From contig JAKFUU010000002.1 in the NCBI GenBank assembly GCA_021732525.1, positions 1 through 64,000 on the forward strand: 64,000 bases of DNA, written 5' to 3'. Of this stretch, positions 15,553-20,724 are shown piece after piece. A model generated the notes under the pieces. It saw only the letters and a list, made by a program, of their open reading frames with translations, made no database searches and was not told the origin of the DNA. Source of the stretch: Sphingomonadaceae bacterium. GTDB lineage: Bacteria; Pseudomonadota; Alphaproteobacteria; Sphingomonadales; Sphingomonadaceae. Each line of letters opens with the position of its first letter. Positions within the stretch are counted from its first letter, which is position 1. The translations under genes and the position numbers were made by a program.

Positions 15553-15873
15553 ATGGCGACCATCCCCGTCAGTGACCAAGATTTTCAAGCAAATGTGTTG
15601 AACAGCAGCAAGCCCGTTATCGTAGATTTTTGGGCGGAATGGTGCGGTCCATGTAAGATGATTGGACCCAGCCTAGAAGAATTGAGCGAAGAATTGAGCG
15701 AACAAGTGACAATCGTGAAACTCAATATCGACGATCATCCCGATACACCGTCAAAATACGGCGTGCGCGGCATTCCGACGATGATCTTGTTCAAAGATGG
15801 CCAGATTGTCGATACCAAAGTGGGCGCGGCGCCCAAATCGGAGCTGAAGCGCTGGATTGAAGAAGCGCTTTAG
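15553..15873 (+). CDS. trxA: thioredoxin 1
   Basis: A 106-residue thioredoxin with the active site WAEWCGPCKM and the cis-proline segment RGIPTMILFK. A strong AAAGGAGA ribosome site precedes the ATG. It supplies reducing power to ribonucleotide reductase, peroxiredoxins and others. A 12-bp in-frame tandem duplication gives the doubled ELSEELSE in the linker helix (15676-15699). The TAG stop abuts a palindromic repeat. Confidence 0.97.
   Translation: MATIPVSDQDFQANVLNSSKPVIVDFWAEWCGPCKMIGPSLEELSEELSEQVTIVKLNIDDHPDTPSKYGVRGIPTMILFKDGQIVDTKVGAAPKSELKRWIEEAL
15676..15699 (+). repeat. 12-bp in-frame tandem duplication in trxA
   Basis: GAAGAATTGAGC occurs twice in succession, adding four residues to a surface helix of thioredoxin without disturbing the frame. 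Confidence 0.9.
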
Positions 15874-16056: not shown

Positions 16057-16160
16057 AGAGGATAATGCGATTTCATTGAATCGTACCATGCTCTTTATCT
16101 CTTTGTGATTGCGTGATTTTATGCGATTAACCGGTGTCCACTTAATCGCATCACGCTCTA
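16057..16160 (-). repeat. 104-bp stop-anchored repeat, copy B (argJ)
   Basis: Read on the minus strand it begins TAGAGCGTGATGCG, where TAG is the argJ stop codon, and ends CCTCT 104 bases later. It aligns without gaps with copies at 24841, 49220 and 63569 and is closest to the 24841 copy (first 37 bases identical). Confidence 0.92.
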
Positions 16161-17384
16161 ACTCCGATAATCGGCGTTGATCGAAATATACCCATGCGTT
16201 AGATCGCAGGTCCATACAGTAGCGCGGCCCGCGCCAAGGCCCAGGTCAATGCCGATGCGTATTTCCGCGCCCTTGAGGTGTTCGGTGACGGGTGCTTCGT
16301 TGTAACTATCCACCGCTAACCCCGCCTGCGCCACCCATTTATCGGCAAAGCGGATGGCGAGCTTGTCACGGTCGGCAGGCTCGCCCGCCTTGCCAACCGC
16401 CATGACAACGCGGCCCCAATTGGCATCTTCGCCCGCGATCGCGGTTTTAACCAGCGGCGAGTTGGCAATCGATAGCCCAATCCGGCGCGCGCTATCGTCG
16501 CTTACGGCTCCCGTCACTTCAATTTCGATGAATTTTTGCGCGCCTTCGCCGTCACGCACCACCAGATGCGCCAACTGCAAACAAATATCATTCAGCGCGG
16601 CGGCAAAGGCATCGACGCCGGGATCATCGAAGCTGGCCAGGGGTGCGTTCCCGGCTTTGCCGGTGGCAAAGGCCAGCACCGTGTCGCTGGTCGATGTATC
16701 GCTATCAACGGTGATGCAGCTAAAACTGCGCAGATTGGCAGCAGACAGTATTTCTTGCAGAAAGCCCGGCTCCACCGCCGCATCGGTAAAAATATAGCCG
16801 AGCATGGTTGCCATATCGGGCGCGATCATGCCGCTGCCTTTGATGATGGCGGATAGATGCACTGTCTTGCCGCCCACTATCGCGCTCGCCGCTGCACCTT
16901 TTGGGAAGGTATCGGTTGTGGTAATCGTGGTTGCGATCTCTTCCCAACTGCAAGGACTGGAGTCAAAAGCCGCCTGCAATCCCGCGTTTGCCTTGTCCTT
17001 TGGCAAAGGCACACCAATCACGCCGGTGGAAGAAACGAAAACTTCGCCAGGATCACAATCTAAATGCGCGGCAACGCGGCTCATAATCGCCTCAACCGCC
17101 TCGCGCCCGCGAAATCCGGTAAAGGCGTTGGCATTGCCCGCATTCACCACCAACCCCCGCGCCCGGCCATTTTTCAAGCTTTCGCGGGTCATTTCAACCT
17201 CGGTTGAACAACAAAGATTGCGGGTTGTTACGCCCGCCACCGCGGTACCTTCATCTAATGTAACGAAACTCAAATCACACCGATCCCATTCCTTATATCG
17301 CGCGCGAGCGATACGCAGGGTTACGCCATCAATATTTTGCAATATTGGAAAATGATCGGGCGCAAGCGGCGATTTTATGGACAA
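16158..17384 (-). CDS. argJ: bifunctional glutamate N-acetyltransferase / N-acetylglutamate synthase
   Basis: A 408-residue ArgJ with the autoproteolytic site KGSGMIAPDMATMLGY (cleavage before the Thr of ATML separates the alpha and beta chains). Other family segments include NAGNANAFTG, SSTGVIG and EDANWGRVVMAVG. It transfers the acetyl group from N-acetylornithine to glutamate in the cyclic arginine pathway. The predicted start is a TTG at 17384 with only a weak ribosome site; no better in-frame ATG is apparent. The TAG stop is the first codon of a 104-bp repeat. Confidence 0.95.
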   Translation of the reverse strand: MSIKSPLAPDHFPILQNIDGVTLRIARARYKEWDRCDLSFVTLDEGTAVAGVTTRNLCCSTEVEMTRESLKNGRARGLVVNAGNANAFTGFRGREAVEAIMSRVAAHLDCDPGEVFVSSTGVIGVPLPKDKANAGLQAAFDSSPCSWEEIATTITTTDTFPKGAAASAIVGGKTVHLSAIIKGSGMIAPDMATMLGYIFTDAAVEPGFLQEILSAANLRSFSCITVDSDTSTSDTVLAFATGKAGNAPLASFDDPGVDAFAAALNDICLQLAHLVVRDGEGAQKFIEIEVTGAVSDDSARRIGLSIANSPLVKTAIAGEDANWGRVVMAVGKAGEPADRDKLAIRFADKWVAQAGLAVDSYNEAPVTEHLKGAEIRIGIDLGLGAGRATVWTCDLTHGYISINADYRS

Positions 17385-17543: not shown

Positions 17544-17606
17544 TTTTTCATCTACCCTTTTGCTGGACGAAAGGTGTTGCGCTCATTATGTGAGCAGGGA
17601 CCAATT

Positions 17607-17885
17607 ATGTTGACGCGCTCTTTCCTATTTCTGCTGGCGATGATGACCGGCCTGTCCGCGGCCCAAGCGGCGGATACGGTGCGTCACGCGCCAGCGGCCG
17701 TTGGTGCATCCGCTGTGCAAGCGGTTGATCTCCTCCGGTCTAGCCAAGTAAAACCTGCCAAAGCCCATATAGCGATTTTGACCAATGCGGCCCTCGATCC
17801 GATACCGTCACTTCGCGCGCCTGTTGCGGCTGATTTCAGCATCCCGGCGCCGCGCATTTTTATCGGTGACCGCAACCGGCAATAG
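17607..17885 (+). CDS. small secreted protein upstream of secA, candidate SecM-like arrest peptide
   Basis: Started at the ATG at 17607, which has AGGGA six bases upstream, giving 92 residues. Residues 1-22 form a clear signal peptide (hydrophobic core FLFLLAMMTGL, cleavage near AQA-AD). The mature part is small, alanine- and proline-rich and without cysteines. Near the C terminus is SLRAPVAADF; RAP-containing motifs (RAPP, RAPG) are the stalling signal in described Sec-monitoring arrest peptides. secA starts 100 bp downstream on the same strand. This organisation mirrors SecM-SecA, but no sequence similarity to SecM is visible, and a regulatory role is inference. Confidence 0.75.
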   Translation: MLTRSFLFLLAMMTGLSAAQAADTVRHAPAAVGASAVQAVDLLRSSQVKPAKAHIAILTNAALDPIPSLRAPVAADFSIPAPRIFIGDRNRQ

Positions 17886-17985
17886 CCGGGGCACCAGCAT
17901 AAATCATTTTTGAATTTAATGTTGCAAATGCCGTGTCGATGCCAGCTGGGCTCCGCGCATTGCCAAGCGCTCAAGGAATATCACT

Positions 17986-20724
17986 ATGCTAAGTAAAGTA
18001 GCCAGAACGCTCTTCGGATCGTCCAATGACCGATATGTCAAATCGATCATGAAAATCGTCGGCAAGATTGGCGAATTTGAACCGCAAATGGAAGCGATGA
18101 GCGATGAGCAGTTGCAGGCACAAACCCCCGCCTTTCGCGAACGTTTGATCGCCGGCGCCACGCTGGATGACATTCTGCCCGAAGCGTTCGCGACCATCCG
18201 CGAAGCGTCGCGCCGCGTGATGGGTATGCGCCATTTTGATGTTCAGATGGTCGGCGGGATCGTGCTCCACCGCGGTGAGATTGCGGAAATGCGAACCGGT
18301 GAGGGCAAAACCTTGGTCGCAACGCTCGCCTGTTATCTTAATGCTTTGGAGGGCAAGGGCGTTCATGTGGTGACGGTCAACGACTATTTGGCCCGCCGCG
18401 ATGCCGAATGGATGGGCAAGATCTACGGATTCATGGGGCTTTCCACGGGTGTTATCGTGCCCAGCCTGTCGGAACGACAACGCCGGGATGCCTACGCCTG
18501 CGACATTACCTATGCCACGAACAATGAGCTGGGCTTTGATTATCTGCGCGATAATATGAAATATGAACGCGCGCAGATGGTTCAACGAGCTCCCAATTTT
18601 GCGATCGTGGATGAGGTGGATTCGATTCTGATCGATGAAGCCCGCACGCCATTGATTATTTCGGGACCAACGGAGGATAAGACCGATTTATATTTGCGGG
18701 TGAATGAGGTTGTGTTGATGCTCAATCCCGAAGATTACGAAAAAGATGAAAAATCGCGCAATATCGTGATGAGCGAAAATGGCACCGAAAGGGCGGAGCG
18801 ATTGTTGGAGGAGGCAGGATTGCTGCATGGCGGAAATCTTTATGACCGCGAAAATACCTTAGTGGTGCATCATTTGGACCAAGCGTTGAAAGCGCAAATG
18901 ATGTTCAAGAAAGACACCGATTATATCATCAAAGATGGCAAGATTGTTATCATTGACGAATTTACCGGCCGGATGATGGATGGCCGCCGTTGGTCCAACG
19001 GGCTGCATCAGGCGGTGGAAGCAAAAGAAGGCGTGAAGATTGAAGCCGAAAATCAAACGTTGGCGACGATCACCTTTCAAAATTATTTCCGCATGTATCC
19101 CAAAATGGGCGGAATGACGGGAACTGCCGCGACCGAGGCGGCGGAATTCCACGAAATTTACAAGCTGAATGTCGTCGAAATTCCAACCAATGTCCCGGTG
19201 TTGCGGATTGATGAAGACGATCAGTTTTTTAAGAATACCCAAGATAAATTTGGCGCCATCGCCAAGACCATCCGCGAAGCCAATGAGCGTGGTCAGCCGG
19301 TGTTGGTGGGCACCGTTTCGATTGAAAAATCGGAATTATTGTCCGAATATCTGAATAAGGAAAATGTCGATCACAGCGTGCTGAACGCGCGGATGCATGA
19401 AAAAGAAGCCTATATCGTGGCGCAGGCCGGGCGACTGGGTGCTGTAACGATCGCCACCAATATGGCGGGGCGCGGAACCGACATTCAACTTGGCGGCAAT
19501 TTGGAATTTCGCATCGAAGAAGAATTGGGGCATCTTGAAGAAGGCCCGGCCCGCGACGCCGCCATTGCCCAGCTGAAAGCGGAAATTGCGGCCGAACGAG
19601 CACAGGTGCTGGCGGCCGGCGGGCTGTTTGTGCTGGCCACCGAACGTCATGAAAGCCGCCGTATCGATAATCAGCTGCGCGGGCGTTCGGGGCGTCAGGG
19701 TGATCCGGGGCTTTCGCGTTTCTACCTCTGTTTGGAAGACGACTTGCTCCGCATTTTTGGCTCCGAATCGCTCTTCGCACGGATGATGAATAGCAGCTTG
19801 GATGATGGCGAGGCGATTGGCGGAAAATGGCTGTCGAAAGCCATCGAAACCGCCCAGCGCAAAGTAGAAGCCCGCAATTATGACGTGCGCAAACAGCTGG
19901 TGGAATATGACGATGTGATGAATGATCAACGCAAGGTGATCTATAGCCAGCGCGATGAGATTATGGATGCCGATGCCGTTGATGACGTTGTCGAAGATAT
20001 GTATAATGATACGGTCAACGCCATTGTCGCGGACCATTGCCCCGCAGGTACTTACCCCGAACAGTGGGATATAGCCGCCCTGAAAGTGAAGGCAAAAGAG
20101 GTGCTGGCGATCGACCCCGATATCGACGCCTGGCTGCAGGAAGAGGCAATCGAACCGGAAATTATTGAACAACGGATCGCGGAGATGACCGAGGCGCATT
20201 TTAAGACAAAAAGCGCCGGTATCGACCCCGAAATTTGGCGTTCGGTGGAAAAAAACATCCTGCTGCAAATGCTCGACCATCATTGGAAAGAACATCTCGC
20301 AACTCTCGATGCGCTGCGCCAAGTCATCTATCTGCGTGCCTATGCGCAGAAAACCCCGATCAACGAATATAAGCAAGAAAGCTTTGGCTTGTTTGAAAGA
20401 ATGCTGGGCGCGATCCGTGAAGATGTGACAAAAACGATCGCAACCAATGAATTTCACGCCGAAGAAGATGTTGAGATGCCGAGCCTTCCCGATTTGCCCG
20501 ATTTCCTAACGTCGCATATCGACCCGTTCACCGGGGAGGACAATAGCGACGATAGGGATGCCGCAACATCCGGGCTGGTCACGACCAAGATACCCGGAAT
20601 GGTGACCGCTCGTTCAAATCAGCCGAACGCTAACCATTTTGCCAATAATCCCGATTTGAAACGCAACGATCCTTGCCCTTGCGGTTCGGGCAAGAAATAC
20701 AAACATTGCCACGGCACATATTGA
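17986..20724 (+). CDS. secA: preprotein translocase ATPase SecA
   Basis: A 912-residue SecA with AAGGA upstream of the ATG. Visible features: [10 protein letters not shown] and the Walker A MRTGEGKT of nucleotide-binding domain 1, [13 protein letters not shown], the second motor domain [14 protein letters not shown], and [11 protein letters not shown]. The C-terminal zinc-binding tail [18 protein letters not shown] contacts SecB and the ribosome. It drives post-translational export through SecYEG. The small secreted ORF just upstream may report on its activity. Confidence 0.98.

Follow-up and report, generated by a model that had tools for sequence, protein, structure and literature searches.

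Does the small open reading frame directly in front of secA, in this DNA, encode a sensor of protein export that controls SecA synthesis? Arrest peptides of the Sec-monitor kind have mostly been found by their RAPP-like motifs, or by clustering of annotated upstream open reading frames (uORFs). The locus lies within a 64,000-nucleotide stretch of DNA from a Sphingomonadaceae bacterium, all of which we refer to as the window. A preliminary description had noted a 92-residue protein with a signal peptide, encoded 100 nt before secA on the same strand, and took a RAP tripeptide near the C-terminus as the likely arrest motif. Our reading, to which we assign a probability of roughly 0.7, is that the leader is a cis-acting Sec monitor, with a putative arrest element at, or next to, the UAG stop codon.

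A leader family linked to secA

Coordinates for the leader (17607–17885) and secA (17986–20724), both on the plus strand, agree with the arrangement first described. The leader start is preceded by AGGGA (17596–17600, plus strand), a likely Shine-Dalgarno sequence, and the Shine-Dalgarno sequence of secA is AAGGAA (17973–17978, plus strand). A spacer of 100 nt (17886–17985) separates the leader stop codon from the secA start. The identity of SecA, the presumed target of regulation, is confirmed by both Pfam and NCBIfam. Upstream, profile matches identify a divergent neighbour, argJ (16158–17360, minus strand). Note that trxA (15553–15873) is also in the window, with argJ and the leader standing between trxA and secA. 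In several family genomes with no leader (L215, L256, L272, and L274) trxA is directly upstream of secA.

The leader product begins with the signal peptide MLTRSFLFLLAMMTGLSAAQA, after which it reads ADTV...SLRAPVAADFSIPAPRIFIGDRNRQ. Residues 1–21 (17607–17669) start with a basic n-region, continue through a hydrophobic core, and finish with AQA, after which cleavage is predicted by eye; the family consensus and dN/dS also point to a signal peptide here. A hypervariable middle follows (17670–17855), the length of which is nearly constant across the family. The conserved C-terminal element, IFIGDRNRQ (residues 84–92; 17856–17882), is the window form of [G]xDRAxE-stop, and the protein thus ends IGDRNRQ. 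The last codon, CAA, and the TAG stop (17880–17885, with TAG at 17883–17885) form a [GC]AA-TAG signature that is conserved at the codon level. No match to the window protein was found in Pfam or NCBIfam, and comparing the leader family with known protein families gave only stray matches (1–2 of 39 members). The leader is a small uORF of a sec gene, has no annotated function, and has a predicted N-terminal signal. These are among the features of Sec monitors given in PMC10987492.

Is the arrangement maintained in related bacteria? We sampled 80 named loci (79 usable), 100 further genomes of the family (Sphingomonadaceae in the GTDB sense), and additional sets, obtaining 208 leaders, 162 of them non-redundant. 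Leader ORFs were picked by hydrophobicity and distance to secA only, so that the choice was blind to their C-termini. About 85–90% of the sampled genomes have a syntenic leader ORF ahead of secA (208 loci), including 70 of the 79 usable named loci and 86 of the 100 further loci. By genus, the leader was found in Novosphingobium (18/18), Sphingopyxis (5/5), Sphingomonas (23/24), and Erythrobacteraceae-type genera (3/3), while most Sphingobium loci lack it (present in 2/8). Searching with the window leader gave weak matches, and almost every one of these was in a genome of the same genus, immediately before secA; nearly all genomes of that genus have a leader, and two relatives within it do not. 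A profile built from 39 leaders produced one strong match per further genome. This match was ~80–145 nt upstream of secA in 27 of 28 new genomes, and in the 28th the locus is split by a contig end. Weaker matches away from secA were mostly inside long ORFs. Linkage is kept across the family, with one copy per genome, at secA wherever this could be checked. Outside the family, a survey of 30 genomes from other Sphingomonadales families and of 27 further alphaproteobacteria showed no evident leader of this kind before secA. In the window's own genome, secD/secF and yidC have ordinary yajC-secD-secF and yidC contexts, where we saw no RAPP-type leader.

Selection at the leader ends and stop codon

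The family consensus consists of a signal (R.LL.LLALLTGLAA), a variable stretch, and xDRAxE at the extreme end; hydropathy and consensus together predict the N-terminal export signal. Measured from the C-terminus, relative entropy peaks at positions -1, -5, and -4, falling to background by about -13. Across six clades, dN/dS is 0.08–0.36 for the signal, 0.04–0.43 for the last 7 codons, and 0.35–0.83 for the middle. Clade by clade, values for the last 7 codons, signal, and middle are 0.04/0.08/0.35, 0.17/0.12/0.45, 0.07/0.24/0.57, 0.15/0.26/0.72, 0.12/0.28/0.42, and 0.43/0.36/0.83. End constraint is weak in the RRRE class. Synonymous sites in the last 7–12 codons vary (pS 0.2–0.6) while the amino acids are constant. 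Hence, it is the peptide sequence that is kept at the leader end.

Among the 86 leaders of the DRAxE class, the hydrophobic core and the stop codon are separated by 75.5 +/- 2.4 aa, despite a lack of conservation in the intervening sequence. PMC10987492 gives, as general traits of Sec-monitoring arrest peptides, a conserved C-terminus and a spacer of more than 30 aa between signal and end, and the leader has both. According to the same paper, short-type SecM homologues have a similar spacer (median 71 aa), and narrow length distributions are commoner in YidC monitors than in Sec monitors, which counts against the Sec-monitor reading. The 162 leaders can be classified by their ends as DRAxE (86), RR[RL]E (22), HDIILG (13), DRxx[EQ] (12), EEGAP (12), and other (17). 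Because ends are clade-specific (DRAxE, RRRE, HDIILG, EEGAP, and QSWLH), no residue is universal.

The RAP tripeptide is indeed near the C-terminus of the window protein (residues 70–72; 17814–17822), with 20 residues after it. This position, about 20 residues before the leader end, is what might recommend a RAPP-like elongation arrest at RAP; in addition, RAPV is among the motifs of uORFs clustering with ApcA in PMC10987492. However, leaders are rich in alanine, arginine, and proline, and composition alone predicts RAP in ~8% of them (13.3 +/- 3.3 of 162 non-redundant leaders, by shuffling of the middle region). In this comparison RAP was observed in 23, and the excess over shuffles is mainly one Novosphingobium cluster at -45; overall, RAP is present in 25 of the 162, scattered over 12 different positions. 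The nearest relative, L002, whose SecA is 84% identical, lacks RAP yet retains the IGDRNRQ-stop end. Hence, RAP is not conserved in position and is missing from the closest relative, a pattern that the preliminary description itself had named as counting against the motif. We conclude that RAP looks like a chance occurrence, and consider arrest at this site very improbable. The proposal of a secA-linked leader resembling a Sec monitor is otherwise supported, by leader anatomy and by family-wide linkage. The expected contrast between the C-terminus and mature region holds for the last ~7 residues and stop codon, which are conserved where the middle is not and on which the preliminary description made no comment, but does not extend to RAP.

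The leader stop codon is TAG in 128 of 162 non-redundant leaders. Within the same genomes, TAG ends 49/69 leaders compared with 5/69 secA genes (Fisher 3e-15) and 10/51 argJ genes (3e-14), although these p-values are too small, and overstate independence, because the genomes are related. TGA is the stop codon of 50/69 secA and 31/51 argJ genes in these genomes. The better argument is the recurrence of TAG across unlike end motifs: it predominates in each of the four main end classes (DR, RRxE, HD, and GAP). Moreover, leaders outside the set in which the bias was discovered have TAG in 25 of 27 cases and TGA in none (0/27). The codon before the stop is also biased. Leader-final Glu is encoded by GAA in 40/44 cases, where codon usage in the secA of the respective genome predicts 15.8, and, when Glu and Gln are combined, the third base of the last codon is A in 60/65 (23 expected, z 10). 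CGC is likewise biased at the nucleotide level in the leader end. From the stop and last-codon biases we infer that what counts is the decoding state at the leader end, when the P site holds the last codon and the A site holds UAG. Such a state would fit a stall at termination, perhaps on release factor 1 (RF1). Note that conserved residues directly abutting the stop codon are a trait shared with termination arrest peptides.

The spacer and a proposed mechanism

How might a stalled ribosome influence secA? In silico, mean accessibility of the secA Shine-Dalgarno sequence across 162 leaders was 0.530 free and 0.534 with a ribosome mask at the leader stop. Since predicted accessibility is unchanged, SecM-type unmasking of the Shine-Dalgarno sequence is not supported, and we rejected this route. 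In the window, the spacer folds no better than its shuffles, and no intrinsic terminator or terminator-like site was called there; the last codons of the leader are predicted to pair just 5' of the secA Shine-Dalgarno sequence, with an energy z-score (0.09) that is not significant. Across the family, hairpin-plus-T sites occur in 37 of 162 spacers, against 8.6 expected from dinucleotide shuffles at the strict setting. An intrinsic terminator is thus enriched, yet not a universal trait, given this count and the lack of one in the window. Spacer stability is slightly above that of shuffles (mean z -0.73, compared with -0.28 in the region before the leader). Spacers are also C-rich relative to G, by +0.12 per nt, compared with +0.02 in leader-less genomes. 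In E. coli, the TnaC leader stalls the ribosome at its own stop codon and governs whether Rho can reach the sequence that follows; the C-rich spacers between leader and secA invite comparison. TnaC differs in that it is a tryptophan sensor, involves RF2 at UGA, and is not exported. One subclade has a conserved fold in which the last codons and stop pair with spacer sequence, enclosing an inner hairpin (alifold -26.5, column-shuffle mean -11.5). We discarded a possible short hairpin, CGC-GAATA-GCG, spanning the stop codon, since its paired fraction equals expectation and there is no covariation. A search of known RNA families in Rfam gave no match.

Our reading is based on the ORF, its family-wide linkage to secA, and its constant length. 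It is also based on selection, which acts on both ends, acts much less on the middle, and reaches the codon level at the stop and the codon before it. In the mechanism envisaged, the signal peptide would direct the growing chain to the Sec translocon as the ribosome nears the end of the ORF. The C-terminal element (GDRNRQ in the window; [G]xDRAxE in the family) would then stall the ribosome on UAG itself or no more than a few codons away, probably through hindered RF1 action or the last peptide bonds. At this position, the signal would be exposed outside the tunnel, with the chain spanning it. Given sufficient SecA/Sec capacity, pulling on the chain would free the stall. If capacity were short, the stalled ribosome would persist and secA expression would rise via the ~100-nt spacer. 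Candidate readouts are a local RNA switch, a terminator-like hairpin, or a Rho site. A narrower version can be formulated, with RF1-dependent arrest at UAG, selection of the stop and P-site [GC]AA codon, and an attenuation readout, via a hairpin or Rho, in place of unmasking. We hold this version tentatively, at somewhat below even odds.

A small exported periplasmic protein, acting in trans through a functional C-terminal tail and merely in an operon with secA, could account for the predicted export and for the conservation of both ends at the protein level; the tail could be recognised by, for example, a protease or a Sec partner. We consider this unlikely. It is the signal sequence, and not the mature domain, that is conserved, and the middle combines relaxed dN/dS with a fixed length. 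Furthermore, each genome has a single leader copy, adjoining secA, and a protein working in trans has no need of codon-level bias at its last codon and stop. Rather less likely again is that the conserved end is an RNA or DNA element, such as a pairing partner, regulator site, or promoter part, with the peptide incidental. While CGC and [GC]AA-TAG are biased as nucleotides, one subclade shows pairing between leader end and spacer, and hairpin-plus-T sites are enriched, the last codons vary synonymously and their amino acids do not. Positions flanking the stop also lack covariation, TAG is kept in classes whose preceding codons are unrelated, and Rfam contains no match.

Conservation of the leader end and stop instead suggests a self-stalling sensor that tunes SecA production. 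If this Sec-monitor reading is true, feedback control of SecA would be the rule in a large family of environmental and biotechnological importance, and the UAG and last-codon bias would offer a concrete handle on release factor identity as part of an arrest mechanism.

Known arrest peptides and leader variants

In its working principle, the leader appears most similar to Sec monitors, for example SecM of E. coli and other Enterobacterales, which is also small, signal-peptide-bearing, and directly upstream of secA. Consistent with the preliminary description, there is no similarity to SecM itself: the FxxxxWIxxxxGIRAGP motif is missing from the window protein and from the family consensus. In addition, the conserved end of the leader touches the stop codon, and folding predicts no unmasking of the secA Shine-Dalgarno sequence by a leader stall. 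The RAPP-like arrest peptides (the RQH family and ApdA, ApdP, and ApcA) have in common with the leader an exported sec-gene uORF with a conserved C-terminus and hypervariable remainder; the RAPP-like ApdP is found before secDF in other Alphaproteobacteria. However, the leader has no conserved RAPP-like motif near its C-terminus, and the family consensus contains none. We conclude that the leader is not a member of the SecM or RAPP-type groups, since both motifs were looked for and are absent.

In its anatomy, the leader is closest to NSP-stop/NAP-stop and to C. difficile CliM. The NSP-stop/NAP-stop peptides of Bacteroidota are encoded by uORFs before secA or secDF and, like the leader, have conserved residues abutting the stop; the EEGAP-stop subclass of leaders likewise ends Pro-stop. 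Arrest of NSP-stop/NAP-stop is established at the termination stage, when the A site holds the stop codon (PMC10987492). The leader differs in phylum, in its mostly acidic end (DRAxE-stop), and in its strong UAG and GAA/CAA bias, and its arrest is putative. CliM (uC_KYxIW), of Clostridia, is a fast-evolving monitor like the leader, and arrest at termination is established for the C. difficile form (PMC13183943). Conversely, CliM monitors YidC, and its motif is 7–11 residues from the stall site rather than at the stop.

The leader family is apparently undescribed, and occurs in most Sphingomonadaceae genomes. It is hypervariable, has many TTG or GTG starts, and no Sphingomonadaceae secA leader is named in the main texts of two large surveys, the supplements of which may hold one. 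TTG or GTG starts account for about 40% of the first 113 leaders (starts chosen by script), which may explain missed annotation.

Several variants were apparent. Leaders of the Parasphingorhabdus/Sphingorhabdus type (L039–L043, L048, L056, and L288) end GDKLEHEEGAP-stop, with TAG as the stop codon, and those of the Sphingobium type (L070, L264, L281, and L285) end [KR]QSWL[HR]-stop, with TGA or TAA in place of TAG. Three leaders (L044, L225, and L241) are 155 aa long, with an insert in the middle that resembles, by eye, a TonB C-terminal pattern; signal and EEGAP-stop end are kept. Most Sphingopyxis leaders (L046, L047, L051, L057, and others) start with TTG. In Novosphingobium (L050, L052, L059, L060, L063, and L064), a conserved TATCTG is found 6–12 nt before the leader start, with no clear Shine-Dalgarno sequence. 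Here, the mRNA might possibly begin at or near the leader start codon, which would imply leaderless translation.
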